In this document: piece after piece, positions 21,231 to 39,053 of the stretch | Layout of the letters: every line of letters starts with the position of its first letter | Position numbering within the stretch: the first letter of the stretch is position 1 | NCBI RefSeq assembly: GCF_001885215.1 | Contig: NZ_CP018091.1 | Location: forward strand, 1,736,001-1,800,000 | Source of the DNA: Synechococcus sp. SynAce01 | GTDB lineage: Bacteria; Cyanobacteriota; Cyanobacteriia; PCC-6307; Cyanobiaceae | Direction: 5' to 3' | Length of the DNA stretch: 64,000 bases | Program-made: the position numbers and the translations under genes | The notes under the pieces: generated by a model | Told to the model about the DNA's origin: nothing | The model's input: the letters and a program-made list of their open reading frames with translations, nothing else | The model's database searches: none

Positions 21231-21359
21231 GGGGAAAGCACCTATTCTTGGAGGCAGTGTCTTTGATAATACCCTGACAAACTCCAGGACGTCGAAACGC
21301 CAGAGGCTAGGGCTTCGCTGGCTTGCCGATGCCGAGCACTGGAGGGCCAAGCGACCTGT

Positions 21360-21389
21360 CTATTATTTAATAGGCAAGCCCCGGATCAA
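21360..21389 (-). promoter_or_regulatory. Possible sigma-70-type promoter upstream of cpcB
   Basis: On the minus strand TTGATC is followed after 18 nt by TAATAG, about 130 nt before the cpcB ATG, leaving a long leader. The match is partial and chosen by eye, so it is a candidate only. Confidence 0.3.
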
Positions 21390-21407
21390 GCGGGTGTTAA
21401 CAAAAGG

Positions 21408-21725
21408 TCACCCCCTTTCGTCAAATCGACTGTGAGATCCACCTTTTTCTGCCCAGTAGTGTAAAAGCTCCACCCAGTGTTGATTCATCAATGAGGCCTT
21501 CCCCTGCAGCACCCGGATGATGCGATTGCCAGAATAAAGACTTTTATCAGTATTGACACTGAGGAGGCGTCCGCCAAGGCTCTCCACGGCTTCCGCGAAG
21601 CGATCGATCGCGTTCTGCTCAAGGGACTCCATGACCAAAAAGTTGCCTTTCAAGACAAGGTGCCGGCTGCGAATCCAGCTCCTGAGCCGTTGTTTGGCCA
21701 TGGGTGGCAGATCGGCCCTCGTCAT
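21408..21725 (-). CDS. cpeR: CpeR-type activator of phycoerythrin genes (probable)
   Basis: 105 residues: LPPMAKQRLRSWIRSRHLVLKGNFLV, then NAIDRFAEAVESLGGRLLSV and a C-terminal HYWAEKGGSHSRF. The size, the W-I-R start and the AEKGG.HSR end fit my recollection of CpeR, the small activator needed for phycoerythrin operon expression in other cyanobacteria. Position is strong support: it is the last gene of a cpeC..S-T-R run, as in the cpeCDESTR operon known from Fremyella. Its ATG overlaps the cpeT stop (ATGA). The DNA-binding mode is not evident from sequence. Confidence 0.65.
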   Translation of the reverse strand: MTRADLPPMAKQRLRSWIRSRHLVLKGNFLVMESLEQNAIDRFAEAVESLGGRLLSVNTDKSLYSGNRIIRVLQGKASLMNQHWVELLHYWAEKGGSHSRFDERG

Positions 21726-22354
21726 ACAAGTGACTGGGTTGCGCTCAACGAACAGGGTAATTCGTTTGCAAAACTTTCTATCAGTTCAAACTCAAACTGT
21801 CGATCTGTTAGACCCCAGAGTTGTTCGTGGCTGTTTGGATCACAGCCAAAGTCGCGGCTACGCCAAAGACCTTCTTCAAGTAAAACCTCACTGACAAGGT
21901 AAGTCAGCTGGCCATTGCGCGGAACCAGGCACTGGCAGCCTTCTTCAAGCTGGCCGCGGAAGGTGCTACTGGTTTCAGGGAAAAATTCCATCGCGCAGCC
22001 CTGCCTTGCGATCAGCTCGCTACGCTCCAACTTCTGAAGAAGACTGGGCTCATGACTTGCACCTGCTACTAGGAGGGAATCTGGAGGGCTGAAGTTATCA
22101 ACTCTGAGTCGATCAGGCAGCTGCCGGACATGGTGAACTCCTTGGCGATAGGGACGCCATAGATCAAAGGTATAAGCTTGTTCTGAGTAAAGCCAGCACC
22201 CATCAAAACCCGAAGTAGTAATAGGCCTGAAGGCCAGTTGAATATGGGATAGCTCTGTTGAGTGGGCCGCAAACTGGCGATCATTGCGGTAGAGACCCGC
22301 AATCAGTTGAAGGCATTGAAAAGCTTGGGTATCACTCAAGGCCTTTGCAGCCAT
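21722..22354 (-). CDS. cpeT: T-type phycobiliprotein lyase CpeT
   Basis: About 210 residues from the ATG at 22354 (MAAKALSDTQAFQCL). The CpcT/CpeT family pattern is clear: an N-terminal FAAHSTELSHIQLAFRPI, CWLYSEQAYTFDLWRPYRQ, a central VDNFSPPDSLL, LEEGCQCLVPRNGQLTYLVSEV, and RDFGCDPNSHEQLWG. T-type lyases load the beta-subunit Cys153 or Cys165 site. Lying between cpeS and cpeR, it most likely serves phycoerythrin beta Cys165. A second T-type protein is at 39054-39647. Alternative starts at 22378 and 22429 would overlap cpeS. Confidence 0.85.
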   Translation of the reverse strand: MAAKALSDTQAFQCLQLIAGLYRNDRQFAAHSTELSHIQLAFRPITTSGFDGCWLYSEQAYTFDLWRPYRQGVHHVRQLPDRLRVDNFSPPDSLLVAGASHEPSLLQKLERSELIARQGCAMEFFPETSSTFRGQLEEGCQCLVPRNGQLTYLVSEVLLEEGLWRSRDFGCDPNSHEQLWGLTDRQFEFELIESFANELPCSLSATQSLV

Positions 22355-22367
22355 TGTGGGTTTCTTC

Positions 22368-22913
22368 TCAACTTCCATCGTGCTGGCGAATTTCAGAGGA
22401 AAAAGAAGCTTGGACGATACCTTGGCCACTTTGCGTGCGCATCATGGAGACCCTTAATCTCACATCTTTGGTTGCAAACCAGATGCGTTCTTCGGCGCTG
22501 GATCCTTCATAGGGAGTGATCAATGTGAAGGCACCATCGTCATCAATATTATATCGGCCGATGGCTGGAATCTTTTCTGTATAACCTATGCTACGCAAAA
22601 GTATGCCGCTTTTGCTGTCTGTTGGCACTGGCACAAGCAGGCATTCACCAGCGCTGACATCTGATTCATCCCAATCAGAAGTACCGCGCCAACTCATCCG
22701 AAAGGGATTGGTGATCGCTTGTTGCGCGATGCCATTGAGGTCAAGTAATTGGGCAAGCTCAATCGATTCATTGGGCTCCGCCATAATGACAATTGTGGAA
22801 TCAATTTCCTCAACGTGCCGGAAAGCCAGATTGTGGCCACTTCGCTTTGAATGCCATGTGCCAAGCGACTTCTTGACAAAATTTGAAATCAAAATGTCAG
22901 TCGAGGTCGCCAA
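22368..22913 (-). CDS. cpeS: S-type phycobiliprotein lyase CpeS
   Basis: Lipocalin-like CpcS/CpeS family: SNFVKKSLGTWHSKRSGHNLAF near the N-terminus, then short beta strands such as ECLLVPVPTD and ERIWFATKDVRLRVSMM. S-type lyases attach bilin to Cys82 of beta subunits; in this operon phycoerythrobilin on CpeB is expected. The start is uncertain: the frame opens at 23009, but that ATG lies at the terminator hairpin after cpeD. I use a TTG at 22913, which gives the family-like N-terminus and about 181 residues. Confidence 0.8.
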   Translation of the reverse strand: MATSTDILISNFVKKSLGTWHSKRSGHNLAFRHVEEIDSTIVIMAEPNESIELAQLLDLNGIAQQAITNPFRMSWRGTSDWDESDVSAGECLLVPVPTDSKSGILLRSIGYTEKIPAIGRYNIDDDGAFTLITPYEGSSAEERIWFATKDVRLRVSMMRTQSGQGIVQASFSSEIRQHDGS

Positions 22914-22978
22914 TTCGTTGAAGTGCGGATGAGCCAGATGATTGTGGATTCTTTGGTTTAAGCAACTAACCAATCGCA

Positions 22979-23006
22979 GAAAAAGCCGCCATTGTAAACA
23001 TGGCGG
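22979..23006 (-). terminator. Hairpin between cpeD-like linker and cpeS
   Basis: On the minus strand: GCCGCCATGTTTACAATGGCGGC followed by TTTTT, starting 25 nt after the linker stop. Stem of about 9 bp with a short loop. It separates the abundant linker genes from the lyase/regulator genes cpeSTR and probably works as a partial terminator. Confidence 0.7.
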
Positions 23007-23030
23007 CAATGGGATGCTGATTGTTTTGAG

Positions 23031-23789
23031 CTAGTTCGCAACAGGCTTGACAGTGCGTATACGAGCGCCCTGACGCTGAATCACATTGATTCGCTGAGTG
23101 AGCTGAGCATAGTCAACAGTGATAACTTGGGCCGCTCGTCGGTTGACAGAGCTATTGCGAGGCATGTCAATCACAATCTCGAAGCGTCCATTCTGATTGC
23201 CGCCTGATCTTGTCGCGATCGGCGGGTTGGCCGACTCTGAAAGGTTGGACGCCAAACTGCGAGCATTGGGCTGATTCTGACCCAAGTCACTGCTGGCATA
23301 ACCACGGCATTGATTAACTGTACGAAGAAAATCCTTCGTTTGGCTCAGCTGAGCAGAATCCGTGCGGGTGTAGGGCGCAATATTTTCCCCGAAGGCTAAG
23401 CCGTATTCGTCACTATCTATATAAGAAAGGATCTCAGCCTCGTAGCCTCCAGCAGCATAGATCGCTGTATGCTCGGCGATTTCGGCTTGGTTGCGTGGCG
23501 CCCGGCCGAGCAAATGCTTGAAGTTCAACTCAATGAAACGATATTGTGAGTTCGTGTCAAAGAATCGTTGCCGATAGGCGTCAGAGAGGGCAACTGCTGC
23601 TACAAACTGCCTGACAGAAATGTCACGATTGCGTAGTTGTGACTCTAATGTGCTGAGCCTGTCGGATTCAATGAGGTGAGCATTTCCCAGCACCTGACGA
23701 TAGACCGATGTCATGACATCGTCTAATTCCATTTCATTCGAGCTGGCCCAGAGTTCACTCGTGGGATTCGCTTGTATCCAGAGAGACAT
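23031..23789 (-). CDS. cpeD: Phycoerythrin-associated rod linker, single domain (CpeD-like)
   Basis: 252 residues from the ATG at 23789 (MSLWIQANPTSELW). One PF00427-type linker domain (about 20-160): VYRQVLGNAHLIESDRLSTL, SYIDSDEYGLAFGENIAPY and the hallmark RFIELNFKHLLGRAP. A C-terminal CpcD-like domain (about 195-252) has RFEIVIDMPR and GARIRTVKPV. It joins phycoerythrin hexamers within the rod. Exact naming among CpeC/D/E is by position and size and is tentative. Third linker in the run, 78 nt after the two-domain linker. Confidence 0.8.
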   Translation of the reverse strand: MSLWIQANPTSELWASSNEMELDDVMTSVYRQVLGNAHLIESDRLSTLESQLRNRDISVRQFVAAVALSDAYRQRFFDTNSQYRFIELNFKHLLGRAPRNQAEIAEHTAIYAAGGYEAEILSYIDSDEYGLAFGENIAPYTRTDSAQLSQTKDFLRTVNQCRGYASSDLGQNQPNARSLASNLSESANPPIATRSGGNQNGRFEIVIDMPRNSSVNRRAAQVITVDYAQLTQRINVIQRQGARIRTVKPVAN

Positions 23790-23867
23790 TATTTTAGGGT
23801 AAGGGGAAGTGAATAGACGCGGCATGGTGCTGCGTCAAAGCATCAGCTAAGCCGTTATAAGTGGATC

Positions 23868-25346
23868 TCAGGAGATCTCGCTTATGCTGGTAATGCGGCC
23901 GCTTGTGCTGTGAATGAACTTTAGCTGGCTTGTCATGCGGTCTCCAGCAACTTCATAAGTCGTTTGAGCTTTACGGCGACGGCTTCCGAAGGTTTGGCTT
24001 GTGACCACAATCCTGTAGCGCTTGCCTGGCGGTTCAGTTGATCCACTTGCTGCAGTGGAACGCAACGGAATGATCTGATTGGCACCACCAGTGACCTGGT
24101 TGAGAAGGCGAGAGCTGGTGACTTGTCGGTCCCCTCCGCTATAGCCATTGACGAGCGCAAGGGTGCGGTTGAAACTGTTTTGACTGCGGCCTTCGGCAGA
24201 TTTGACACCTCGGAGGTACGGAACAATATCCTCACCGAAGTTATTGATGTATTCTTCACTATTCAGGAAGTGGTCAATCAAGGCTGCGTATCCTTGGCGA
24301 ATCACGATGTCAAGGGGGACACGGAATTCAGCTTGACTTTCTGGAGCACGGCCGAGCAATTGCTTGAACAGCAATTCCACAAAGCGATAGGGAGAAGACT
24401 TTGTAAAGAACCGCTGCCGATAGTGCTCAGTGAGGCAGACGTTGCGAATGAAGCCCCTGACGCTCACTTCCCCGTCAATCAATTGGGATTCAAGCGATGT
24501 CGGAATATCCCCTTCCATCAGGTGTGGGTTCCCCATCACTTGGCGGTAGACGGCGCGAATAACCTGCTTCACCTCCTCGGCGCTGCTGCCAGCCCAGCGC
24601 TCAATCCTTTGCTGATCTTGTTGTGATACCCCAAACCCTGCGTAAAGCGAGGCGCTGAACGGGGCGCTATCTTGACCGGAAGTGGAACGCATCGGCTTGA
24701 AGACAGCGGTTGGAGAAGGGTTGTATCGGCCGAAATTCAAGCCCGACATAGCTCTTGCTGCAGCGGCAAGATAGGGAAGGGTCTGCGAACGTTTCGGTTG
24801 CGCATTATCACTACTGCTGTTGCTGCCCTTCAGTGAGAGCATTTTGGTGTAATTATTCTGGCCAAGACTGACTTGACTCACAACAGAGCGTAGGTATGGA
24901 ACTGTGTCTTCACCAAAAGCATTCTGGTATTCATCACTACCCGTATAACTTCTAATTTCTTCTTCAAGGCCTTTGCTTTGAAGAATTTCAACTTGTCTGG
25001 AAACTTCAGCTTCTGACTGTGGCGCCCGGCCAAGAAAATGCTTGAAGTTCAGCTCAACAAAACGATGCGGTGAGCATGTTTCAAAAAAGCGACGACGATA
25101 GAGTTCGGAGCAACCCAGCTCCGTGACGAATCCACGGACGGAGAGTTCGCCGTTAGCCAAGCGAGATTCGGAAGAGCTCAGTCGCTCGCTCTCCATCACT
25201 CCGATATTTCCAAACACCTGTTTGTAGGCGGCACGAATGGCCACTTGGCAGGCTTCGGTCCCGGCTTGAGGCCAGAAACTTGTAGGGGCCATGTTTGGCT
25301 GCATCAGATTAGCTTGAGGAGCTTGAAACCGATTGAGGGTAGGCAT
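23868..25346 (-). CDS. cpeE: Phycoerythrin-associated rod linker with two linker domains (CpeE-like)
   Basis: 492 residues from the ATG at 25346. Two PF00427 domains in tandem: the first at about 20-160 (RFVELNFKHFLGRAPQSE, SYTGSDEYQNAFGEDTVPYLR), the second at about 260-400 (AVYRQVMGNPHLMEGDIP, RFVELLFKQLLGRAPES, NSEEYINNFGEDIVPYLRG). A CpcD-like domain at the C-terminus reads KRYRIVVTSQTFG and ends SGRITSISEIS. One molecule could bridge two phycoerythrin hexamers. Double-domain linkers of this kind are known from picocyanobacterial phycobilisomes; whether this is CpeE in others' nomenclature is inference. Confidence 0.82.
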   Translation of the reverse strand: MPTLNRFQAPQANLMQPNMAPTSFWPQAGTEACQVAIRAAYKQVFGNIGVMESERLSSSESRLANGELSVRGFVTELGCSELYRRRFFETCSPHRFVELNFKHFLGRAPQSEAEVSRQVEILQSKGLEEEIRSYTGSDEYQNAFGEDTVPYLRSVVSQVSLGQNNYTKMLSLKGSNSSSDNAQPKRSQTLPYLAAAARAMSGLNFGRYNPSPTAVFKPMRSTSGQDSAPFSASLYAGFGVSQQDQQRIERWAGSSAEEVKQVIRAVYRQVMGNPHLMEGDIPTSLESQLIDGEVSVRGFIRNVCLTEHYRQRFFTKSSPYRFVELLFKQLLGRAPESQAEFRVPLDIVIRQGYAALIDHFLNSEEYINNFGEDIVPYLRGVKSAEGRSQNSFNRTLALVNGYSGGDRQVTSSRLLNQVTGGANQIIPLRSTAASGSTEPPGKRYRIVVTSQTFGSRRRKAQTTYEVAGDRMTSQLKFIHSTSGRITSISEIS

Positions 25347-25379
25347 GGCAGAAACAAGATTAGGACTCAAGGGGATTGA

Positions 25380-26300
25380 TCAATTGACAGGTGTAATGCT
25401 GGCTATTTTCCCGCCCTCGGCGTGAATTCGTTGGTATTGTTCGGAGAGTTTTTCGAATGGGACGTAATACACCCGGCTTGATTGGCGGTAACGCGAAAAC
25501 TTTTGAACTTTGTTCGCTTGATTGCCACTGACCTGAACTCGAAACACCTTTCCCTCTTGGCCGGCTCCGACGCCTGAGCGGGTCTTGCCTATGCCATTCG
25601 GAGAAGCCAGGCGGAAGCTGCTGGCCGTATTGCTGGGGCTGATCACTGGGAAACTGGTGTTCTGGTAAGCGGCACTGCCGAGCTTGGGAGCAATGCCAGC
25701 GACGTCTCCCTTGAGATCGCTGCTGCTGGCTCCCCGGGTGAGCTGGAACATCCAGGTGAATTCCCGCATACTCTTGCCAGCGCCGGTTTGCCAGCCGTGC
25801 AGATAGGGAACGGTGTCTTCGCCAAAGCGATTTTGATATTCGACGCTATCGATAAAACTGTCGATGTCGGCTTGAAATCCAAATTCGTCAAGAATGGTGC
25901 TATGGCTGCGAAGCTCTTCGAAGTTGTCTGGTGCTCTGCCCAGTAAGTGCTTGAAGCTGAGCTCAATGTAGCGATACCGGCTACAGGTATCGAAAAAGCG
26001 GCTTTGGTATGTATCGCTTTTTGCTAATTGCCTGACGAATTCACGAACGCTGATTCGACCGAGCTTGAATTGTGATTCTGCAACGACTTGGCGCTCTTCT
26101 TCCATCACATAGGCATTGCCAAGAACTTGGCGGTAAATTGCTCTGATGATGACGTCTTTATCAGCGTTTTCATCACCCGTGAAATGCTCTTGAGCGCCGA
26201 TTGATGTGAATCGCTCTACGCCAAGGAAGGAAGCAGGTCCAAAGGTCATGCTGGGAGTGCTCGGGGGACTAATGGCATACCCAGGGGGCTTGGGTGCCAT
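25380..26300 (-). CDS. cpeC: Phycoerythrin-associated rod linker (CpeC-like)
   Basis: 306 residues. After a ~45-residue N-terminal extension a PF00427 domain follows (about 48-185): IRAIYRQVLGNAYVMEEERQ, RYIELSFKHLLGRAPDN, DSVEYQNRFGEDTVPYLHG. The C-terminal CpcD-like domain (about 245-306) has GKVFRVQVSGNQ and GGKIASITPVN. First gene of the linker-lyase run and therefore probably the rod linker nearest the phycocyanin. It starts about 110 nt after the terminator that ends the first cpeBA copy, so it needs its own promoter or read-through. Confidence 0.82.
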   Translation of the reverse strand: MAPKPPGYAISPPSTPSMTFGPASFLGVERFTSIGAQEHFTGDENADKDVIIRAIYRQVLGNAYVMEEERQVVAESQFKLGRISVREFVRQLAKSDTYQSRFFDTCSRYRYIELSFKHLLGRAPDNFEELRSHSTILDEFGFQADIDSFIDSVEYQNRFGEDTVPYLHGWQTGAGKSMREFTWMFQLTRGASSSDLKGDVAGIAPKLGSAAYQNTSFPVISPSNTASSFRLASPNGIGKTRSGVGAGQEGKVFRVQVSGNQANKVQKFSRYRQSSRVYYVPFEKLSEQYQRIHAEGGKIASITPVN

Positions 26301-26421
26301 GGTTCAGTTCTTCAAGATCTTACTAATGGGCACCGGCCCATTCTCTTCTCATGCGTCAATTGTTACATCAATCCGACGATCAGGGCTTGATCGTTTTGTT
26401 GAGTTCAATCAGCGAATCTGA

Positions 26422-26449
26422 CAAAAAAGCGGCCCCGAGTGGGGGCCGC
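26422..26449 (-). terminator. Terminator after cpeBA copy 1
   Basis: On the minus strand GCGGCCCCCACTCGGGGCCGC followed by TTTTTT, 54 nt beyond the cpeA stop. A strong intrinsic terminator. The same element with small changes follows the second cpeBA copy, so it lies within the duplicated block. Confidence 0.85.
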
Positions 26450-26480
26450 AGAAGAGGCTGCAAAAGAACAACGTGAGGCG

Positions 26481-26494
26481 TTGCCCTAGGGCAA
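26481..26494. repeat. Perfect 14-bp palindrome after cpeA copy 1
   Basis: TTGCCCTAGGGCAA is its own reverse complement and lies 8 nt beyond the cpeA stop, upstream of the terminator. It is conserved exactly at 32772-32785 after the second copy. It may form a small 3' UTR stem that stabilises the message; no protein site is known to me. Confidence 0.6.
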
Positions 26495-26502
26495 GGCTGT
26501 GA

Positions 26503-27030
<528 letters not shown>

Positions 27031-27051
27031 TCAGTCAGAGACTGGAGGAAA

Positions 27052-27931
<880 letters not shown>

Positions 27932-28171
27932 TTGATGCCAGACCTCAGCGATCGTTCCATCACCAGTTCAGAAGGCCCGGGGGAGCTTGAGCTCGCCATT
28001 CAAGACCTGCAGGCCTACCGGCAGCGGTTGGTGCAGGACGTGATGACCATGGGCCACAAGCTGAAGCTTCCCCAGGCACGGGTGGAGCGTGACCTGCTCG
28101 AGCATCCCGAAATTAAGGAGGTTGACCAGCTGCTCAGTCAGTTGGGCCAACAACGCGCCGGCAACGCCTAG
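27932..28171 (+). CDS. Small hypothetical protein of the phycobilisome region
   Basis: 79 residues, unrecognised. Predicted all-helical and charged: LELAIQDLQAYRQRLVQDV, HKLKLPQARVERDLLEHPEI, ending LLSQLGQQRAGNA. No membrane segment or cysteine. It is divergent from cpeB copy 1, and its 3' end overlaps the convergent cpeY by 38 nt. The even codon pattern and location in the locus make it a likely real gene. Function unknown. Confidence 0.6.
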   Translation: MMPDLSDRSITSSEGPGELELAIQDLQAYRQRLVQDVMTMGHKLKLPQARVERDLLEHPEIKEVDQLLSQLGQQRAGNA

Positions 28172-29447
28172 CCCGTAGGCCAACCAGCCGATCTCCGTCG
28201 CTCAAGCACGCCTCTGGTGGGTTGAGGCCGAGGCTTTCCAGGGCCATCACACAGGCGTAGCGCAGCTCCCAGCTTCTGGCACTGACCGCATGCTCCTGCA
28301 ACACGCTTCCGGCCTCCGTTGTTTGCAGCCGTGCCAGGGCCAGGGCTGCAGCCGGTCGGGATTTCAGAAATTGGGGCCGCTGGTTGTTGAGCCCATCGAT
28401 CACCAACGGCAGCAGCATCGGGTCGCCCAGTCGTCCGAAGAGATGCATCATGTGGTAGTGGGCTCCGTAGTCGTTCCAGCCCTCCTGCTCAAAGCTGCTA
28501 ACCAGGGCCGGTAAGGCCGCTTTGCCGAACTGCTCCTCCAAGGAGACGATCGCCAGGTAGGTGCGTCCGAAGTCGGTTCCGTACAGCTCACGTACCAAGG
28601 ATTCAAGCGCTTGGGGCTGGTCGTAACGATGAACCAGTTGCAAGCTTTCGGGGCGATCATCGAGTTGACGATCGAGGACATCTAACAGCAGCTCATCGGA
28701 GAGAGGCTCGCCGAAGCAGGCCGCGTCTGTGTTGCCGGCAAGGCTGGCCAGATGACGGATTCCCCGTAACCGGAACACAGGCGAGACAGGGGCTTGTCCG
28801 ATGCGTGGAATGGCCGGCAGCCAACCCACGTCCATCAGGTCTTGGATGACGCCTCGCCTGACGTTCACATTGGGGTGAAACAGGAACGGCTCCAATTGCT
28901 CCAACTCTGAGCCATTGCCCGAGATCAATGCGCAGGCTGTGATAGCGGCCGTGGCCAGCATCCCGTCGTCGGCATCCACGAAAGCCGCGATGGGTTCGAG
29001 GGCGGCCTGGCATCGCTGGCGGGCGAGAACCTGCACGATGACTCTCCTGCTCTGGCTGGGGTCGGCCAGCAACTCGATCAGGCTGGCCTGGATTCCCGCA
29101 TCGTCTGCGCCCAGTTGACCCAAGGCCCAGGCTGCATTCTCGACAAGATAGGGATCCTGACTTGTCAGACAGTCGACGATGCCCGCTGTGGCACGCCGGC
29201 AGCCCAGCCGGGCGAGGGTTTCTACTGATTTGCGCCGCGCAATCCTCTGGGCTTGGGCCCCGTCTGTGTCCTGGAGGCAGGCCATCAGTGCCGCTTCGGT
29301 GTCCTCTCCAGGAAAATTGATCAGGTGCGCGGCTGCCGTGTAGCGGTCACTCTCAAGGTCGAGATCCTTGAGCGGTCTCAGCAGCATGGAGATGGCTTCA
29401 TCCTTGCCGAGGCCGGGATGAATGTTGAAAAAACGGTGATCTGACAT
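28134..29447 (-). CDS. cpeY: Phycoerythrobilin lyase CpeY
   Basis: 437-residue HEAT-repeat bilin lyase. Family features: N-terminal RFFNIHPGLGKDEAI, DRYTAAAHLINFPGEDTEAAL, repeats such as LVENAAWALGQLGADDAGI, VNVRRGVIQDLMDVGWLPAI, SRRVIVQVLARQ, and a C-terminal SWELRYACVMALESLG. CpeY, with CpeZ as chaperone, is known to attach phycoerythrobilin to CpeA Cys82. Length and position next to a cpeBA copy fit CpeY; the closely related MpeU/MpeY-type lyases are less likely since no mpe subunit genes are present here. Confidence 0.85.
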   Translation of the reverse strand: MSDHRFFNIHPGLGKDEAISMLLRPLKDLDLESDRYTAAAHLINFPGEDTEAALMACLQDTDGAQAQRIARRKSVETLARLGCRRATAGIVDCLTSQDPYLVENAAWALGQLGADDAGIQASLIELLADPSQSRRVIVQVLARQRCQAALEPIAAFVDADDGMLATAAITACALISGNGSELEQLEPFLFHPNVNVRRGVIQDLMDVGWLPAIPRIGQAPVSPVFRLRGIRHLASLAGNTDAACFGEPLSDELLLDVLDRQLDDRPESLQLVHRYDQPQALESLVRELYGTDFGRTYLAIVSLEEQFGKAALPALVSSFEQEGWNDYGAHYHMMHLFGRLGDPMLLPLVIDGLNNQRPQFLKSRPAAALALARLQTTEAGSVLQEHAVSARSWELRYACVMALESLGLNPPEACLSDGDRLVGLRARRCRRVVGPTD

Positions 29448-29456
29448 GGTCTGAAG

Positions 29457-29927
29457 TCACTGGCACTGAGGTTCCCAGATTTCGAAGACGGCATCGATCG
29501 GACGAGCGCCCTTCAGGGCCTCCCAGGAGATCCCCTTGAGAAAGGCTTCGGGACTGTTGGTCTCCACCAGGTCGACACCCCACCCTCCGAGCTGCAGTGG
29601 AGATCCAAGCTGTCCTGGTTGATCCTTTCGGCCTCCTAAAAGCAGCACGGTATAAGCATCAGATTCCCCGGCCCGCACACGCTGGTTGCGCAAGGTCTGG
29701 CCGAGAAGGCGGGCCAAAGCGATTGGCTCCAGTGGTGCGGTTACCTTGGCGCGCCAATGCGGGTGCACAAGTTCTTTAATGGCGATTCCATTGGCCGCTC
29801 CAGTGGTGATTCCGGTGTCCAGCCCGTCTGTGAGAAGCTCAACCAAGGCGCTTCCCCGTAAATCAGCGTAGCTCTCGCTCGGTAACTGGAAGTTGTGGGA
29901 GATCACGAAGCTGGTGTCAGTGGCCAT
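29457..29927 (-). CDS. Hypothetical protein between cpeY and a phycobiliprotein-like gene
   Basis: 156 residues from the ATG at 29927 (MATDTSFVISHNF). Unrecognised. It has a soluble alpha/beta pattern: LVELLTDGLDTGITTGAANG, LARLLGQTLRNQRV, AYTVLLLGGRKDQ, ending AVFEIWEPQCQ. No membrane segments and only one Cys. The gap to cpeY is 9 nt, so the two are very likely co-transcribed, suggesting a helper role in phycoerythrin chromophorylation or assembly. That role is inference from context. Confidence 0.65.
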   Translation of the reverse strand: MATDTSFVISHNFQLPSESYADLRGSALVELLTDGLDTGITTGAANGIAIKELVHPHWRAKVTAPLEPIALARLLGQTLRNQRVRAGESDAYTVLLLGGRKDQPGQLGSPLQLGGWGVDLVETNSPEAFLKGISWEALKGARPIDAVFEIWEPQCQ

Positions 29928-30024
29928 AGCTGGTGATCTGTCTTGATTCATTTTATCTGATTGTGGTTCGCGCTACCGCCATGCAGTCGTCACGGGGAAA
30001 GCCAATAATCTGGTTCCAAGGACA

Positions 30025-30630
30025 TTAACCAGTGGTGCTCCAGCTCAAGTGGTGGGATTCCTCAAGGGCCGAGTGGATGCCAGCGAGGCCCAAGAGCAAC
30101 AGCTGCTGGGTGGCGGAGATGGCTGAAGGTTGGAGCTGCGCGCGATAGGTGCTGGCCATGTCCAGCAGGGCTGAAGCCATGGCGTCGACCGGAACATCGA
30201 GCAGCCGATAGAGCTCCATGGTCGCGGCATAGCCCTGCTGGTCGCAGAAGCCCGCCTCACCGATGGCTGCGCCATAGCTGGCGATGCGCAGAAAATGCCA
30301 GAGATCGCGCCAACAAGCCTTGGATCGATCGGGAGTGTGCAGGGAACCGCCGATTGTGAACAGCTGTGGAAACTGCCCATGAAGGGTTGATTTGGCATGC
30401 TCCACAAGCGATGGCATCAAGCGTTGAAAATTCAGAATGTCTTCCTGATCTGCCTGTGATTCGCTACAGAGGGCTTGGAGCTCTTCGCCATGCAGCAGTC
30501 GCTTCGCTTGATCCGCCTCAAGGAGGTATTGGACGTGCTCATTGCTGAGTGACAAGGAATTGGGCAGCGTGAATAGGCGAGCCTGGGCGATCAGTGCTTT
30601 CATGTGCGCCGAAGGCGATTGTTGTTCCAT
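30025..30630 (-). CDS. Divergent phycobiliprotein-like protein
   Basis: 201 residues from the ATG at 30630; other starts at 30642 and 30741 are possible. The globin-like phycobilisome fold is recognisable: ALIAQARLFTLPNSLSLSNE (N-terminal helices), LMPSLVEHAKSTLHGQFP, then SKACWRDLWHFLRIASYGAAIG, which aligns with [20 protein letters not shown] of CpcA so that Cys106, Arg108 and Asp109 match Cys84, Arg86 and Asp87. LYRLLDVPVDAMASALLDM matches the later alpha/beta helices. Overall identity to true subunits is low. It could bind a bilin, or act as a chaperone or sensor; unproven. Confidence 0.7.
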   Translation of the reverse strand: MEQQSPSAHMKALIAQARLFTLPNSLSLSNEHVQYLLEADQAKRLLHGEELQALCSESQADQEDILNFQRLMPSLVEHAKSTLHGQFPQLFTIGGSLHTPDRSKACWRDLWHFLRIASYGAAIGEAGFCDQQGYAATMELYRLLDVPVDAMASALLDMASTYRAQLQPSAISATQQLLLLGLAGIHSALEESHHLSWSTTG

Positions 30631-30774
30631 CGACGAGCGCATGATCTGAGTTGGCAACGACAATAATGAAAGCTTTGGGCCAGAAGTCTGAGGTAGCAGT
30701 CTTGAAGAAACGACAGGGCCACTGCTTTTGAGCAGGATCAAGGTTAGACGGGCCTGATTCGAAGCTGTAGGGCC

Positions 30775-31032
30775 TCAGCTCGTGAGTAGTCGCTCGATCA
30801 ATTTGGCTTTGGAAAGTTTTCCTGCATTGTCAATGCCTTGCCGTGCGGCCTGCTTGCGAAGTTCAGATAAGCTGAGTTTTGCTAAAGAATTTTTGAAACC
30901 CGAATCAGTTATTACAGTTGTTGGTTCGCCATGTTTTGCCGAGCCCATAGACTCATCTGAAGTAGGGTATTTCCCGGTTCTGGTAAGGAAATGCCAGGGG
31001 CGTTGGTGAGCCACTGGAATCAGTTTTTCCAT
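30775..31032 (-). CDS. Small protein with SAP/Rho-N-like C-terminal helix-turn-helix
   Basis: 85 residues from the ATG at 31032 (MEKLIPVAHQRP). The C-terminal ~35 residues read LSLSELRKQAARQGIDNAG followed by KLSKAKLIERLL, which has the helix-extended loop-helix pattern of SAP, HeH or Rho N-terminal domains that often contact nucleic acid. The N-terminal half is low in recognisable structure. It overlaps nothing on its strand and is divergent from cpeF (139 nt). A DNA- or RNA-binding regulator of the locus is possible but only inference. Confidence 0.5.
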   Translation of the reverse strand: MEKLIPVAHQRPWHFLTRTGKYPTSDESMGSAKHGEPTTVITDSGFKNSLAKLSLSELRKQAARQGIDNAGKLSKAKLIERLLTS

Positions 31033-31171
31033 ACTTGCGAACATTGGGCCTGTTGATGGGGCCCTATCTAGGACCAGGCTTTGGTATTGGCAAGAACTCT
31101 TCAGAACTCGTGATCCAATACCGAGGTGATGCTGCATGTTGGAGAATGGCTTTCCAAGACCAGGACTCTCA

Positions 31172-32053
31172 ATGAGCGGTACGGTTTCACCTCAGTTCAC
31201 GCCGAAGGAAAATGATGCCCTGCTGGCTGAAGTGCGCTCTGCCCTGGCCAACGGTCAATTCTGCGGCGATGACCCGAAGGCCTTGGCGCGCGTTGTTGAG
31301 GGATTGGCGGATCCCCGCGGTCTTGTGCGCTTCAACTTCGCCGAGACGCTCGGAGCGATTGGCCGCCCAGCCATTCCGTTCCTGCTCAAGGCCCTGCGCG
31401 GGCACGAGAATGTGGCGGTTCGTCGTGCTGCTGCCAAGACGCTGACCCTGATTGAGGCCCCAGAAGCCCTGTCAGATCTTGATGCTGCCCTCAGTCATGA
31501 TCCCGATCCGGTGGTGCAGGGCTCGGCGGCTGGTGCCATGGCCCGTTGTGGCGCCGACGCGGTTCCGTTCCTGATGAAACAACTTCAGGATCCTGATGCG
31601 GGTGCCATCGTTAAAGGATTGGCCCGGTGGGCCCTCTCGTTTATTGGCGCTGAGGAGGTTGGGCCCTTGGCTGAAACCATGCAGACGGGGAACCCGGATC
31701 AGCGCGCGGCCTTGGTGGAGGTGATTGCGGAGCAGATACGCTCCAGTCAGGATGCTGAACTGATCGCACTGCTGATTCAGTGTTACTCGGATCCTTCGGC
31801 GGATGTTCGCGCTGAGGTTGTCACGGCTTTAGGTAATCTGCTCGATCCTCAATACCTGCCTCAGCTTCTTATCGGGCTTGCCGATTCATCTGGAGTTGTG
31901 CGCAGGGTCGCAGCACTGGCTCTCGTCAAACAAAAAGATCCTGGTGTGCTCAGCCAGGTGAGAGATGCCGCCCATGCAGAGAAAGACCCCAGTGTGATCC
32001 CCGTGATGGAACTGGCAATTCGCCAGCTTGAGCAGCTCATCAAAATCGATTGA
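31172..32053 (+). CDS. cpeF: CpeF/MpeV-family bilin lyase (probable CpeF)
   Basis: 293-residue HEAT-repeat lyase from the ATG at 31172, which has an AGGA ribosome site upstream. Repeats: LVRFNFAETLGAIGRPAIPF, NVAVRRAAAKTLTLIEAPEAL, VVQGSAAGAMARCGADAVPF, IVKGLARWALSFIGAEEVGPL, ADVRAEVVTALGNLLDPQYL. In Fremyella CpeF ligates the doubly linked phycoerythrobilin at CpeB Cys50/61, both of which are present in the CpeB here. Tail to tail with cpeZ, 1 nt apart. MpeV is the close alternative, but no mpe targets are seen. Confidence 0.75.
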   Translation: MSGTVSPQFTPKENDALLAEVRSALANGQFCGDDPKALARVVEGLADPRGLVRFNFAETLGAIGRPAIPFLLKALRGHENVAVRRAAAKTLTLIEAPEALSDLDAALSHDPDPVVQGSAAGAMARCGADAVPFLMKQLQDPDAGAIVKGLARWALSFIGAEEVGPLAETMQTGNPDQRAALVEVIAEQIRSSQDAELIALLIQCYSDPSADVRAEVVTALGNLLDPQYLPQLLIGLADSSGVVRRVAALALVKQKDPGVLSQVRDAAHAEKDPSVIPVMELAIRQLEQLIKID

Positions 32054-32054: not shown

Positions 32055-32660
32055 TCAGCTCTGCCAAGCCTGTTCGCTGAAGCGATCCAGGGCCTGGGTT
32101 GCCGCTTGCTGAATCATGCTGTCTTCCCTGTGGGCTCCATCAGCCAGGAACTGTTCGACCAATAGCTTGCCCTCGGCATGATTCATGGAGGCCAGGGCAT
32201 TCAGTGTTGCCATGATCACAGCAAGATCATCACTCTTGAGAGCAGATTCCAGGGCTGGCAGAGCCAATGAACCCATTTCCCCGAGTGCCATCACAGCGGT
32301 CAGCTGGACCACGGGATTGGGCTCCAGACATTTTTGACCCAACAGATGGATCGTCTCGGCGCTGAAATTGTGATCCGGCCAAGCCACGGCGATCTGGGCC
32401 ATGCCCTTGCAGCAACTGGCGCTGATGGTTGGATCGACGCTCTCGGCGAGCTTGTCTCGGATCAGCGGCTCCACCGCAGGACCGATGGCCCCCATCGCCC
32501 GAACTGCGCTCCGGCGCAGGCTCACATCTTCAGCATCGAGAAGGCCGAGTAGCCGAGTGCTGACGCTCGGATCACCACTGGCGATGATCTCATGCATCAG
32601 CCTGTCGCGCTGGTGGGGATTCGGATGGCTGAGTTGGGCGAACAGTCCGTCGATCGACAT
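32055..32660 (-). CDS. cpeZ: CpeZ, phycoerythrin lyase chaperone
   Basis: 201 residues from the ATG at 32660 (MSIDGLFAQLSHPNPHQRDR). The N-terminus matches the CpeZ pattern of an F-x-QL-HPNP start followed by RLLGLLDAEDVSLRRSAVRAMGAIG, SCCKGMAQIAVAWPDHNFSAE and NPVVQLTAVMALGEMGSLALP. CpeZ is a HEAT-like protein that stabilises phycoerythrin subunits and helps CpeY. It lies just upstream of the terminator of the second cpeBA copy on the same strand, so the arrangement is cpeB-cpeA-cpeZ here. Confidence 0.85.
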   Translation of the reverse strand: MSIDGLFAQLSHPNPHQRDRLMHEIIASGDPSVSTRLLGLLDAEDVSLRRSAVRAMGAIGPAVEPLIRDKLAESVDPTISASCCKGMAQIAVAWPDHNFSAETIHLLGQKCLEPNPVVQLTAVMALGEMGSLALPALESALKSDDLAVIMATLNALASMNHAEGKLLVEQFLADGAHREDSMIQQAATQALDRFSEQAWQS

Positions 32661-32711
32661 TTCTGGCAGAACCCGGGGTGTTGTTGTGAGGCGATAGGGG
32701 AAGTCTGCCAG

Positions 32712-32740
32712 ACAAAAAAGCGGCCCCGAGGTGGGGCCGC
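32712..32740 (-). terminator. Terminator after cpeBA copy 2
   Basis: On the minus strand GCGGCCCCACCTCGGGGCCGC followed by TTTTTT, the counterpart of the element at 26422-26449 with two changes at the loop. It lies between cpeA copy 2 and cpeZ, so it should lower cpeZ read-through. Confidence 0.85.
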
Positions 32741-32771
32741 AGAAGGGGCTGCAAAAGAGCAACGGGAGGCT

Positions 32772-32785
32772 TTGCCCTAGGGCAA
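32772..32785. repeat. Perfect 14-bp palindrome after cpeA copy 2
   Basis: Second occurrence of TTGCCCTAGGGCAA at the same position relative to the cpeA stop as in copy 1. Flanking bases differ slightly between the copies while the palindrome is unchanged. Confidence 0.6.
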
Positions 32786-32793
32786 GGCTGTGA

Positions 32794-34339
<1,546 letters not shown>

Positions 34340-34954: not shown

Positions 34955-35059
34955 GACAAAATCTGTTAGGCCTGCTGGAAACTGCTTCCGATCATGCAGC
35001 ATGCAACAAGAGACGATTTGTCTGTGCCTGCATCAAGGTCGTTGACCTCTCCGCGCACG

Positions 35060-35671
35060 ATGGCGGAGTTCCTGGCGAAAAGCGCTGGAATGTGGCTGTC
35101 ACATCGATCCGTGCACCATTTCGAAGAGAGCGATGATGAGTCTGGATGTTCTAATCTGGTCATTGTTCCATTCGGTGCTGATGATCCTGCCGTGGAGCGG
35201 GTGTCTGAGCAATTCAACATTTCGGGCGGAGGCGCTGTAGGAGGCGCTCGATTTTATTGGCAGAGCAATACGATGAAGATGGATATCGTCAATGATAATG
35301 CTGCTGTATTGGTGGATATTCCTGACCCGAAAGATGTCACTCGAGGTGTGATGTATCGCGATATTGGTTATCTTGAAGGCTTGGCAGTCGCCAGTCGCTA
35401 CGATATCAGTGAGGCTGGCGTGATGACCCTCCATACAGAATATGATCGCAACTCTGGGGTGGAGCGTTGTTGGTTTTTGAGTGACGACACGCGAGTCCGC
35501 GTGGGATCGTCACAGGTGATGGGAGGAGTCAATCTTGTCAGTTACTCTACGGAAACTAGGTGCCATGAAATGCAAGACTTTCACGCCCTCCGCCGGGACG
35601 CTGAATTGAGGCGTGAGGCACTCATGAATTTGGATTTGGATGCTGTTGATTTGGATGGAGCTCGCCGTTAA
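35060..35671 (+). CDS. S-type phycobiliprotein lyase (CpcS/CpcU-like)
   Basis: 203 residues from the ATG at 35060 (MAEFLAKSAGMWLSHRSVHHF); an ATG at 34994 would add 22 residues. The N-terminal F-x-x-S-x-G-x-W-x-S-x-R-S-x-H-H pattern is the CpcS/CpeS signature, followed by lipocalin-like strands and RCWFLSDDTRVRVGS. Since another S-type protein lies in the cpe operon, this one may serve Cys82 of phycocyanin or allophycocyanin beta; that is inference. Its last codon overlaps the pebA start, suggesting an operon of lyase-pebA-pebB. Confidence 0.82.
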   Translation: MAEFLAKSAGMWLSHRSVHHFEESDDESGCSNLVIVPFGADDPAVERVSEQFNISGGGAVGGARFYWQSNTMKMDIVNDNAAVLVDIPDPKDVTRGVMYRDIGYLEGLAVASRYDISEAGVMTLHTEYDRNSGVERCWFLSDDTRVRVGSSQVMGGVNLVSYSTETRCHEMQDFHALRRDAELRREALMNLDLDAVDLDGARR

Positions 35672-36393
35672 TGTTTGACCATTGTCATAGTAGCCTGATT
35701 GAGCAAATTAAGAGTCTAGGAGGTACGCAGCTTCCCTTGGATTCTGATTTGGCTGAGCAAAGTAATCCACGCAAAGGAGCAGTTATTCGCAGTAGCCTTT
35801 GGCAGGCGCCAGGTATTCGCCGGTGGAGAGTGACGCAACTAGATGGCGGTGATGCTGTCCAAGTTCTCAATGCTGTGGCCTACCCTGAATTCGGTCGAGA
35901 GGAACCGATTCTTGGCATCGATCTTCTTGGTTTTGCCGTTCGAGATAAGTTGGTTGCTGTCATGGACTTCCAACCTTTGGAGCAGGGCAGCAGCTATGCC
36001 GAGCGGTATTTGTGTGGATTGAAAGCCATTCAGGCTCGCCATCCAAGCCTGGCTGCTGGTGAAGCGATGCGTGCGTACGATGCAGATCAATATTTTTCGC
36101 CGTTTCTTTTATTTGCGCGGGGGTCTATCACCGAGCTTGAGCCGCTGGTGGAGCAGTCTTTTCAGGAAATCATTCAGGCCTATGCGGCGATGCACTTAGA
36201 GGCAGTCAGCACACCTGAACAGAGTGATCGTGTCGAAACTCTGCAGCGTGCTTACGATCAGTACAGCGCGGAACGTGATCCTGCCCACGGTTTATTTACC
36301 AGTTATTTTGGGGAGGAATGGAGTAATCGTTTTATGCGAGCGTTCCTTTTTCCCCTTTCTTCTTTTGTGTCTACTCCTGTCAAACACTTATGA
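35671..36393 (+). CDS. pebA: 15,16-dihydrobiliverdin:ferredoxin oxidoreductase
   Basis: First of the two reductases that make phycoerythrobilin, reducing biliverdin IXalpha to 15,16-dihydrobiliverdin with ferredoxin. 240 residues: SSLWQAPGIRRWRVTQLDGGD, LQV-like VQVLNAVAYPEFG, GIDLLGFAVRDKLVAVMDFQPLE, DQYFSPFLLFARGS and the C-terminal YSAERDPAHGLFTSYFGEEW. The Asp residues of the bilin pocket in this family lie in these motifs. Overlaps pebB by 4 nt (ATGA), consistent with substrate channelling between PebA and PebB. Confidence 0.96.
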   Translation: MFDHCHSSLIEQIKSLGGTQLPLDSDLAEQSNPRKGAVIRSSLWQAPGIRRWRVTQLDGGDAVQVLNAVAYPEFGREEPILGIDLLGFAVRDKLVAVMDFQPLEQGSSYAERYLCGLKAIQARHPSLAAGEAMRAYDADQYFSPFLLFARGSITELEPLVEQSFQEIIQAYAAMHLEAVSTPEQSDRVETLQRAYDQYSAERDPAHGLFTSYFGEEWSNRFMRAFLFPLSSFVSTPVKHL

Positions 36394-37127
36394 CCTGGCG
36401 CTGGGAACCTTTCTTCAACCATGCTGTGACTCAGATCACGGCAAAACTCGCGTTGGAGCCTTATCCGATTCCGGCAGGTATGGCGGAAAAGGTGGGTAGC
36501 ACCGGGTCTCGTGCCAAGCCGATCGCTGTCACGACCACAAGCTGGGGAGTGCGAAATGACAAACTCCGTCAGGCGAGGGCTGCCTGTGTGGATGCAGAGC
36601 CGAATCCCCAGGTGCTGAATCTTGTGATCAGCCCGGAGCCCCGCTTTGATCTTCCCTTCTTTGGTGCTGACCTGGTGACGTTGCCGGGAGGTCACCTGAT
36701 CGCTTTGGATCTTCAACCCGTCTTGAAACGAGATCGTCTCCATACGCAGGCTGTCTGGTCAAGATTGAGGCCGGTGTTTGACCACTTCCGCGCACTGTTA
36801 CCCGATGGAGGCCCTATTCCTGATGAGGCAGAACCATACTTCTCTCCCTGCTTTCTCTGGACCCGGTTGCCACTGACAGCAGAGAGTGAGACCTTGATTG
36901 AAGGGCCTTTGATGGCTGCATTTGTTGCCTATCTGGATCTCTATCTTGATCTCATTGCAGAGGCCAATCCAGTGGATGATTCACGGATGCAGCAATTAAA
37001 AGAGGGGCAACTTAGATATCTCGACTACCGAGCTGAGAAAGATCCTGCCCGCGGTATGCTAACAAGATTTTATGGTGAAGAATGGACCGAGGCCTACATC
37101 CATGGATTTCTTTTTGACCACCGCTGA
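36390..37127 (+). CDS. pebB: Phycoerythrobilin:ferredoxin oxidoreductase
   Basis: Reduces 15,16-dihydrobiliverdin to 3Z-phycoerythrobilin with ferredoxin electrons. 245 residues: WRWEPFFNHAVTQITAKL, EPYPIPAGMAEKVGSTGS, DLPFFGADLVTLPGGHLIALD, LPDGGPIPDEAEPYFSPCFLW and YRAEKDPARGMLTRFYGEEW. These separate PebB from PebA and PcyA. The product supplies the bilin for all Cpe subunits encoded in this region. Confidence 0.96.
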   Translation: MTWRWEPFFNHAVTQITAKLALEPYPIPAGMAEKVGSTGSRAKPIAVTTTSWGVRNDKLRQARAACVDAEPNPQVLNLVISPEPRFDLPFFGADLVTLPGGHLIALDLQPVLKRDRLHTQAVWSRLRPVFDHFRALLPDGGPIPDEAEPYFSPCFLWTRLPLTAESETLIEGPLMAAFVAYLDLYLDLIAEANPVDDSRMQQLKEGQLRYLDYRAEKDPARGMLTRFYGEEWTEAYIHGFLFDHR

Positions 37128-37143
37128 GTGAGGAGCGGTGCTT
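37119..37143 (+). terminator. Possible weak terminator of the pebAB operon
   Basis: CACCGCT and AGCGGTG form a perfect 7-bp stem overlapping the pebB stop, followed by CTTTAAG. The T run is short, so it is a weak candidate. Confidence 0.4.
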
Positions 37144-37150
37144 TAAGAAT

Positions 37151-37627
37151 TCAGCCATCGCTGCTCATTAAACTTGCAGCGAATTCAGTGTTCATCAGTG
37201 GCACTGCAATGAGAAAATCATGACGATCTCGGTAAAATGACCACACCATCCCAAGGTCAAGACCTTCGCAATGGTCTGCCACAAGCCATGCATCGCGAGA
37301 ATCGACACCAATCCCCATCATCAATGCATAGAGTTCATCGGGATTATGGGCGCCAGTCACCTTCAACGCCGAGCCAACGACGTAGGTGAGGATGCACGGC
37401 TTTTCGTTTTCCTGTTGATCTGAAGCGAAGACAATATTGTTATCTGTGGTTAAGTGAAGACCTGCCACTGCTGACTGCCAAGTCGATTGGATATCGGCCT
37501 CAAGACTGACAATTAGCTTGCCCCCCCCGGCGTTGATTTCCAATCTTTTGCCCCAGTTCTGAACCAGCAGTGCTTGGAGCCGCGTTTGCTGCTCAAAGGC
37601 GGAGCGATGGTTCAGGGGATTTGCCAT
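37151..37627 (-). CDS. Hypothetical protein downstream of pebB
   Basis: 158 residues from the ATG at 37627 (MANPLNHRSAFEQQTRLQ). Unrecognised. Alpha/beta soluble pattern: NWGKRLEINAGGGKLIVSLEAD, LHLTTDNNIVFAS, PCILTYVVGSALKVTGAHNPDELYALM, VDSRDAWLVADHCEGLDLG. No membrane segments. Convergent with pebB and divergent from the next gene. Base composition is like the rest of the phycobilisome region. Function unknown. Confidence 0.62.
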   Translation of the reverse strand: MANPLNHRSAFEQQTRLQALLVQNWGKRLEINAGGGKLIVSLEADIQSTWQSAVAGLHLTTDNNIVFASDQQENEKPCILTYVVGSALKVTGAHNPDELYALMMGIGVDSRDAWLVADHCEGLDLGMVWSFYRDRHDFLIAVPLMNTEFAASLMSSDG

Positions 37628-37738
37628 GGGTTGATCAGATCTACCAGTCTTGTAGATGGACAATAAACTCTAAGTGGCCAAGGCTGGACTTGCCACGAAT
37701 TAGCGGTAAAGTCGATTCGTGTATCCGCGATCTTTCCC

Positions 37739-38158
37739 GTGGACCGATCTCATCAGAGGTTAGCAGAGCAGGTTGAGGCTTTATCGCAGATATGTGAAAC
37801 CTTGGTCATACGCCTTTTGGAGGCAGAAGAGCAGCTTGAACTCTTATCTGCCTTAATGAATGAGGGCACTATAACCGGATTGAAGGATGGTTTGAGCTGT
37901 CAGGCGAGTGATCAAGCCTTAAGTGAAGCAGCTGCCACGATCCAGAGACTTGGGCTCTATTTAGATGCCAAAACCTCAGCGGTGGGTCAACCCCTGGAGT
38001 CCTTCGCACAACCGAATCATTCTGACCCTCAGCGAATTCAAGCCAGCCATGCAGAACCTTTGCTGGATGACTCTGATTTTATCGATGACGTTAATCAAGA
38101 ATTAAATGCCAACTACGAGGAAAGCCTTGATGATCGTCAAGACTTTCTCGCGGCGTAG
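37739..38158 (+). CDS. Hypothetical coiled-coil protein of the phycobilisome region
   Basis: 139 residues from a GTG at 37739. The N-terminal third is a strong amphipathic helix with heptad-like Leu/Val (LAEQVEALSQICETLVIRLLEAEEQLELL), probably a coiled coil. The C-terminal third is acidic with Asp/Asn-rich stretches (LDDSDFIDDVNQELNANYEE) and likely disordered. No known domain. Located between an unknown gene and the CpcL-type linker. Confidence 0.6.
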   Translation: MDRSHQRLAEQVEALSQICETLVIRLLEAEEQLELLSALMNEGTITGLKDGLSCQASDQALSEAAATIQRLGLYLDAKTSAVGQPLESFAQPNHSDPQRIQASHAEPLLDDSDFIDDVNQELNANYEESLDDRQDFLAA

Positions 38159-38231
38159 CAGGCCTGCAAAGTTATAGAGTTTATCGGCTTTAACCTGTCC
38201 CATCAATTCTGGCATTACAGGCACCTACAGC

Positions 38232-38954
38232 CTATTTCCAGCCCGTGCTCAACATGGCCCCGGCAGTGGCTAGTAGAATTCCAATAATGGCTACGCCGCC
38301 GAAGGCCGCCAAGCCCAGCCAGATCTGCAAAATAACTTTTGGGGGCTGGCCATTCACCCATCCAGGCAAATTCAGACCAGCTTGGCCGTTCCCTGAGGGG
38401 GCTCGTTGCTGGCTGACCTCACGCCAGTAGGCGTCATAACGAGGTGCTTTCTGGTTGAAAGGCAATTCGCCTTGTTGACGGCCCGGTAGAGATCTGGAGC
38501 GTTGATGGGGGATCTGGTCATAACCGAAAGCGTCAAGATACTCTGGCGAATCAAGCAGAGTATCGATGAATCCCGCAAATCCCTTTGTTGCAATAACAAT
38601 CGACCACGCCATTTCTTCGTCGGCTCCGAAGGTGTCGCGCCCTAAGACTCTCCCGACGACTTGCTCTACGACGCGGTAATTACTGTTACATTGATAGAAG
38701 CCATCTTGAAATTTCTTGGACAAAAGCAAGCCTCGCACGAAGTCACGAGCTTGAATTTGTTCGTTGGTGAATTGCGACTCCAGCATCGCTTCGCGGTCAT
38801 AGGCGAAAGCATGAAAGAATATCTGACGGTAGGCGCTTTCTATTTGTTCTGTACGGCTTGTTTTTTGGCGTATGGACTCATCGTTCCCAACCGAAAAAGA
38901 TGCAACGCGTGCGTTCTGGGTTGTGCGCGCGTAAGGGAGAAGCGTCAGTGCCAT
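38232..38954 (-). CDS. cpcL: CpcL (CpcG2)-type rod linker with C-terminal membrane helix
   Basis: 240 residues from the ATG at 38954 (MALTLLPYARTTQNARV), the usual CpcG-family start; an upstream ATG at 38987 is an alternative. PF00427 linker domain at about 35-165: ESAYRQIFFHAFAYDREAML, CNSNYRVVEQVVGRVLGRD, SIVIATKGFAGFIDTLLDSPEYL. Unlike CpcG1, which is soluble, the C-terminus is a ~25-residue hydrophobic segment (VILQIWLGLAAFGG, VAIIGILLATAGAML), which is the mark of CpcL. CpcL anchors core-less phycobilisome rods to the thylakoid membrane and photosystem I in other cyanobacteria. Confidence 0.82.
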   Translation of the reverse strand: MALTLLPYARTTQNARVASFSVGNDESIRQKTSRTEQIESAYRQIFFHAFAYDREAMLESQFTNEQIQARDFVRGLLLSKKFQDGFYQCNSNYRVVEQVVGRVLGRDTFGADEEMAWSIVIATKGFAGFIDTLLDSPEYLDAFGYDQIPHQRSRSLPGRQQGELPFNQKAPRYDAYWREVSQQRAPSGNGQAGLNLPGWVNGQPPKVILQIWLGLAAFGGVAIIGILLATAGAMLSTGWK

Positions 38955-39053
38955 ACGTGTCAATGTTCTTTTCAAGATACTAAGCAATAGTGCTAATATT
39001 TATACCAAGATAGGTGAAATCATTACATAGCTTCACTGGCCTCCTGGGCGTCC

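Follow-up and report, generated by a model that had tools for sequence, protein, structure and literature searches.

What a divergent phycobiliprotein is doing among the genes for the phycoerythrin antenna is the question raised by a locus in the picocyanobacterium Synechococcus sp. SynAce01. The locus lies within a stretch of 64,000 nucleotides (contig NZ_CP018091.1, positions 1,736,001 to 1,800,000; henceforth the window, in whose numbering positions are given), and the gene in question is set in a phycobilisome gene cluster. An earlier sequence-only reading had recognized a phycobiliprotein-like product with an intact Cys-x-Arg-Asp bilin site, had left it unplaced among the known subfamilies, and had offered three guesses as to its role, namely a bilin-binding sensor, an assembly chaperone mimicking a subunit and a minor rod terminator. 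Our analysis indicates that the gene is very probably aplA, the picocyanobacterial member of the known AplA family, and that its product would carry a bilin at Cys106.

The open reading frame (ORF) at 30025-30630 on the minus strand encodes 201 residues followed by a stop codon. A longer alternative opens with a TTG at 30741; since the closest relative, encoded in the genome designated G084, has 204 residues counted from its ATG, the start is best placed at or near 30630. Between these two copies the nonsynonymous divergence (dN) is 0.33 and the synonymous divergence (dS) 1.92, which is near saturation, and the resulting dN/dS of about 0.17 indicates that the gene is under purifying selection. 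Residues 36-172 match PF00502 with an E-value of 1.5e-24 and 87.1 bits, so far above the cut-off of 22.2 that the resemblance to phycobiliproteins is not due to chance. Likewise, when a profile built from 38 homologs was compared with one of 16 canonical phycobiliproteins, the two aligned over 159 columns with a probability of 99.8%, and the former profile matches 193 distinct PDB sequences (E<=1e-5), with all 60 among the matches listed being phycobiliproteins and the top ones mostly allophycocyanin alpha chains. The family models of the canonical antenna subunits recovered the protein weakly, with matches to ApcA, CpeA, CpcB, ApcB, CpeB and CpcA that all fall far below their cut-offs: the best is ApcA, with 40.9 bits against a curated 270, while CpeA and CpeB give 37.2 bits (cut-off 225) and 22.3 bits (cut-off 275), respectively. 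These scores, together with a position outside the canonical clades of the tree described below, led us to reject a canonical antenna subunit in general and ApcA in particular, in agreement with the sequence-only reading, which had held the protein to be neither CpcA/B nor CpeA/B nor an obvious allophycocyanin.

To which group it does belong emerged from a survey of 386 genomes of the phylum with a profile of 25 homologs. Matches of at least 132 bits were found in 53 of these, the next one listed scoring 98 bits; the survey thus clearly separates an Apl group from the ordinary phycobiliproteins. Among 151 genomes, 39 copies of this type were recovered (E 1.4e-15 or better); the window protein is 57-59% identical to the G084 copy and at most 41% identical to the others found. 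A tree of 76 rows was built from the window gene, 24 of the 36 fetched picocyanobacterial copies, 20 copies from outside this group (33 were found in the survey) and 31 of 39 canonical loci, the eight canonical loci removed being four duplicates (L007, L012, L194, L205), three additional CpcB copies from a single genome (L195, L198, L200) and L210; over-long ORFs were trimmed at their N-terminal end. All 45 Apl rows form one clade (support 100/100), apart from the beta clade (99/96) and the alpha group (95/72), and the window protein falls within its picocyanobacterial part (98/94, or 100/92 when the sponge-symbiont type is excluded). In another tree, limited to 41 Apl rows after removal of the four longest branches, it again falls there (100/100). 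Its exact position inside this part is unsure: together with the G084 copy it stands beside L060 in the 76-row tree, with a long-branch warning, and at an open fork in the 41-row tree.

This clade corresponds to the published aplA because the copies of strains RCC307 (L102, with the same place in L058) and WH7803 (L100) adjoin unk4 and cpcG2, which is the place assigned to the gene by Six 2007 (PMC2246261), where both strains are tabulated: upstream of cpcG2 and beside unk4 in marine Synechococcus strains with phycoerythrin II (PEII). For the tree itself, L058 was dropped as a near-duplicate of L052, and neither the WH7803 copy nor the Fremyella sequence was among the rows. The name is also used for freshwater and Black Sea strains in PMC5478717, PMC6363710 and PMC6776005. 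According to PMC6363710, Type IIB clusters contain aplA and Type II clusters lack it; the window cluster matches neither description exactly, yet has the gene. The protein that the sequence-only reading had left unplaced thus belongs to a named family that several papers show in phycobilisome clusters of picocyanobacteria; as far as novelty is concerned, this is the outcome, an already characterized family member, that the sequence-only reading had itself named as a refutation. The founding member, AplA of Fremyella diplosiphon, was reportedly described by Montgomery in 2004 as an allophycocyanin-like protein with a 28-residue extension and a covalent chromophore, not found in phycobilisomes, and is said to have substitutions at positions important for subunit packing. 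The window protein shares with the family a domain nearest to allophycocyanin, an N-terminal extension, an intact bilin site and membership of a clade that includes copies at the published place; it differs in its divergent sequence, its long branch and its site between a SAP-domain protein and a DUF2656-cpeY pair.

The alignment bore out the claim that Cys106, Arg108 and Asp109 correspond to Cys84, Arg86 and Asp87 of CpcA. Together with Arg115 and Tyr119, these residues are present in all 45 Apl and all 31 canonical rows, a count that excludes L210, whose ORF has no Cys at the bilin site and would break the 31/31. The retention of the bilin-contact residues supports attachment, and Cys106 of AplA is likely to bear the bilin. 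Other positions set the Apl group apart: Trp107 and Phe113 are found in every Apl row as against none and two of the canonical ones, respectively, and Arg102 in 45/45 against 16/31. ApcA and the other core subunits share the domain and the C-x-R-D site with AplA and differ in having Leu, Ile, Tyr, Ala or Gln in place of Trp107. The N-terminal extension of 27 residues in the window protein equals the median of the 45 rows (range 22-48, some N-terminal ends being cut or of uncertain start). Three residues typical of antenna subunits have changed in much of the family, with Gly at position 124 in 15/45 Apl against 30/31 antenna rows, Gly at 136 in 4/45 against 31/31 and Glu at 139 in 14/45 against 29/31. 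L210 itself (G288:C3:3928079-3928516) is a divergent phycobiliprotein-like protein with a PF00502 score of 105 bits. The window's own genome also encodes a divergent allophycocyanin pair (G000:C1:140605-141607), an ApcB variant (L005) and, on a long branch, an ApcD-like protein whose motif reads C-Q-R-D (L013); these may be the apcD4-apcB3 low-light pair. Like AplA they are variants beside a normal antenna set; unlike it they fall among the canonical proteins of the tree, with ApcB (97/97) and ApcD (95/84), respectively.

The location of aplA beside phycoerythrin genes is unusual. We read 37 picocyanobacterial neighborhoods (36 plus the window) out of 39 copies, leaving out those of G114 and G119. 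In 29 of these aplA adjoins unk4, and 23 of these 29 have cpcG no more than 3.5 kb away; in six others, of the sponge-symbiont type, aplA adjoins cpeB, pointing away from it. The usual marine Synechococcus arrangement, unk4-aplA-cpcG2, is not matched by the window; the order SAP-aplA-DUF2656-cpeY occurs in only two loci, those of the window genome and G084. Among 48 named loci this gene order was found in none, L126 and L128 showing no labelled neighbor in a set that may omit relatives of the window genome. The separation of aplA from unk4 and cpcG2 here weakens the idea that these must act together. In one locus (L072 5617-6807, G096) unk4 and aplA form a single ORF of 396 residues in a fragmented assembly, either a misassembly or a genuine fusion that would hint at partnership; relatives such as L055 have them as distinct genes with a few bases between them.

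Within the window, the sequence-only reading had correctly placed the gene in the phycoerythrin locus, flanked by a small SAP-like protein and followed on the same strand by a further gene and cpeY; the domain scans confirmed this arrangement and identified the gene before cpeY as encoding a DUF2656 protein. The four minus-strand genes, in the order SAP, aplA, DUF2656 and cpeY, are separated by gaps of 144, 73 and 9 bases, which suggests a single predicted transcript. The features are collected in the table.

Features of the aplA locus in the window
Feature	Position	Strand	Basis
aplA ortholog, 201 residues, CWRD bilin site, 27-residue N-terminal extension	30025..30630	minus	ORF, Pfam, tree, alignment
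Codons 106-109 (C-W-R-D), predicted bilin attachment site	30304..30315	minus	computed from ORF, read in sequence
DUF2656 protein (PF10847), between aplA and cpeY	29457..29951	minus	101.3 bits, cut-off 28
cpeY-like bilin lyase, HEAT repeats	28134..29447	minus	NF058505, E 2.5e-127, 424.9 bits, below curated 600-bit cut-off
Small SAP-domain protein, upstream of aplA	30775..31137	minus	SAP 24.8 bits, cut-off 23.9, on 79-residue C-terminal part
HEAT-repeat lyase-like protein, presumably of CpeF/MpeV type	31136..32053	plus	Pfam and NCBIfam scans
HEAT-repeat lyase-like protein, presumably CpeZ	32055..32762	minus	Pfam and NCBIfam scans
cpeBA copy 1, direct repeat	26420..27611	minus	98.3% to copy 2; Pfam, NCBIfam
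cpeBA copy 2, direct repeat	32711..33903	minus	98.3% over 1193 columns to copy 1
unk4-like protein, usual aplA neighbor in other picocyanobacteria, here ~6.5 kb off	37151..37663	minus	name from position in Six 2007
CpeT/CpcT family genes	21722-22429 and 39054-39647		
CpeS family genes	22368-23009 and 34994-35671		

The block from the SAP gene to cpeY is flanked in both genomes by the two direct cpeBA copies. In G084 these are 100% identical over 1113 bases, and between the genomes identity is about 89%; the much higher identity within each genome (see the table for the window) implies that the copies stay alike inside each. Recombination between the repeats would delete cpeY, DUF2656, aplA and the SAP gene along with the two HEAT-repeat genes, leaving one cpeBA. 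Two copies have already been reported for strain Synace01 (PMC7771541), and a passage search of another paper on this strain (PMC6337551) yielded no mention of aplA. A counterpart of the SAP protein is otherwise seen only in G084 (L047, 42% identity); a search of 60 genomes, G084 not among them, found it in the window's own genome and gave no match in the other 59, and we therefore rejected it as a general AplA partner. In a CpeY tree restricted to matches of >36% identity, a threshold that left out most marine strains, the window and G084 proteins group with the other included picocyanobacteria, the sponge-symbiont type excepted (91/87). A phycoerythrin cluster of another type (L076) is present in G108, which belongs to the same genus. 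Both observations would fit acquisition of the window cluster from elsewhere. The G+C content drops to about 50-54% at 21000-26000 and 35000-39000, as against about 60% at the cluster ends, consistent with a cluster that is mosaic or was acquired. Another product of the window is a phycobilisome linker of 500 residues that contains two linker domains (23868-25370). There was no sign of carriage of aplA by phages: one peptide pattern run over viral contigs hit 13 times, with no relative confirmed among the hits, and tblastn against 50,697 phage records found nothing. PADLOC returned no match.

The association of Apl with phycoerythrin extends across the phylum. With CpeA called by its model above the curated cut-off, 61 of the 386 genomes are positive. 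When ordinary phycobiliproteins are counted, 167 genomes match the Apl profile at E<=1e-12; of these, 48 have both Apl and CpeA, five Apl only, 13 CpeA only and 101 neither; CpeA is thus present in 48/53 genomes with Apl and 13/114 without it (Fisher p 5e-24, kinship ignored). The 125 genomes outside the window's family divide into 28, five, two and 90 in the same order, so that, again with kinship ignored, Apl occurs in 28/30 CpeA genomes and CpeA in 28/33 Apl genomes. Physical linkage follows in part: of the 28 genomes with both, and taking the best CpeA in each, 17 have the two on one contig, 11 of them <12 kb and six >20 kb apart, and among 20 of the 33 outside loci that were read, 11 have cpeA/B, cpeY, pebA or pebB within 3.5 kb and nine do not. 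We found no statement of a phylum-wide link in the literature searched, most subscription papers lying outside its coverage. There are exceptions both ways. Ten of the 13 CpeA-only genomes, of 1.7 to 2.6 Mb and with a single phycobiliprotein match each, appear to be of the Prochlorococcus type; G081, G241 and G422 have phycoerythrin and no Apl at 99% completeness. Conversely, a PebA query gave one weak match in each of the five Apl-only genomes and three in each of five phycoerythrin genomes, from which it seems that Apl does not need phycoerythrobilin (PEB) there.

Taken together with the published family reading, these observations lead us to propose, tentatively and at somewhat less than even chances, that AplA senses light quality or bilin status in connection with the phycoerythrin antenna. 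One linear tetrapyrrole would be attached to Cys106 by one of the cell's bilin lyases, either S-type (CpeS/CpcS) or HEAT-type, and would be held there by Arg108, Asp109, Arg115 and Tyr119; such a covalent bilin is highly probable. AplA would then remain soluble and outside the antenna rods, and its light absorption or bilin load would be read by a partner binding the Apl-specific surface or the N-terminal extension. This last step is conjecture, prompted by the antenna residues having changed across the family and by the dispensability of Apl for phycoerythrin. Of the three guesses in the sequence-only reading, the way the family is read in Six 2007 (PMC2246261) fits the sensor. Several points weigh against this proposal. 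AplA has no output domain, and the bilin, the absence from phycobilisomes and the signaling all go back to the reported Fremyella work, in part as related by Six 2007 (PMC2246261). Of the three antenna positions that vary in Apl, the window protein retains Gly124 and Glu139 and departs only at 136 (Ala), and the alpha-beta contact pair is largely kept, with Asp40 (CpcA Asp13) in 37/45 and Arg115 in 45/45 Apl rows, and both in the window protein. The residue case for lost antenna packing is hence good where the family is concerned and weak in the window protein, and because of the retained Gly124 and Glu139 we rate the absence from rods, drawn from the literature, as no more than probable. Finally, the branch of the window and G084 copies is long, 1.12 in the 76-row and 2.24 in the 41-row tree, against 0.46 for cpeY in the same pair (a rough comparison, as alignments and row sets differ), and the role of AplA may have shifted in that lineage.

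The same evidence bears on the other readings. That AplA is a helper in phycoerythrin maturation, a subunit mimic carrying or handing over a bilin, or holding lyases for a site served by the neighboring cpeY, accords with its co-occurrence with CpeA, its position in a single run of genes that includes DUF2656 and cpeY, and the outside loci near phycoerythrin or bilin synthesis genes. The follow-up of co-occurrence with cpeY, which the sequence-only reading had suggested, covered neighborhoods: beyond the two picocyanobacterial loci, aplA directly adjoins cpeY in two non-picocyanobacterial ones (L163, L179). Yet unk4, not cpeY, is the neighbor in most picocyanobacteria, the five Apl genomes lacking CpeA above the cut-off have a single weak bilin reductase match apiece, and phycoerythrin genes occur without Apl in the three 99%-complete genomes and in the ten Prochlorococcus-type genomes, as aplA is also absent from WH7805 according to Six 2007 (PMC2246261); we regard a helper as not very likely. 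A minor antenna subunit, serving as rod terminator or rod-core adaptor, would account for the full-length domain with its intact bilin site, for the many copies next to the rod-core linker gene cpcG2, and for the retained contact pair, Gly124 and Glu139; given the family-wide changes at the antenna positions and the reported absence from phycobilisomes, it is improbable. That the gene is nonfunctional and decaying in this lineage is suggested by the long branch and by the fact that none of the three further genomes sampled from this genus (G048, G083 and G108, the last 80% complete) gave an Apl-type match; however, with the frame open, the bilin residues and Apl signature intact and substitution constrained relative to G084, this is extremely improbable.

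The sensor reading may also take a narrower form in the lineage of the window and G084, in which AplA would have been rewired into the cpeY gene run as a phycoerythrin-specific bilin sensor or maturation checkpoint for the doubled cpeBA dose; its product would there evolve faster than its neighbor yet keep the bilin site. We consider this quite improbable. If true, such a checkpoint would report whether bilin supply and lyases match the doubled cpeBA, a further job for a phycobiliprotein beyond light harvesting and generic photoreception. The gene at this locus is real, was correctly seen and belongs to a known family; it is ordinary as a discovery and useful for the question of AplA function. 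A 2008 review (PMC2327270) described such biliproteins as 'variants of unknown function'. Apl presents a bilin site without a settled function, and its tie to phycoerythrin, along with the exceptions in both directions, gives comparisons able to test the role of AplA.
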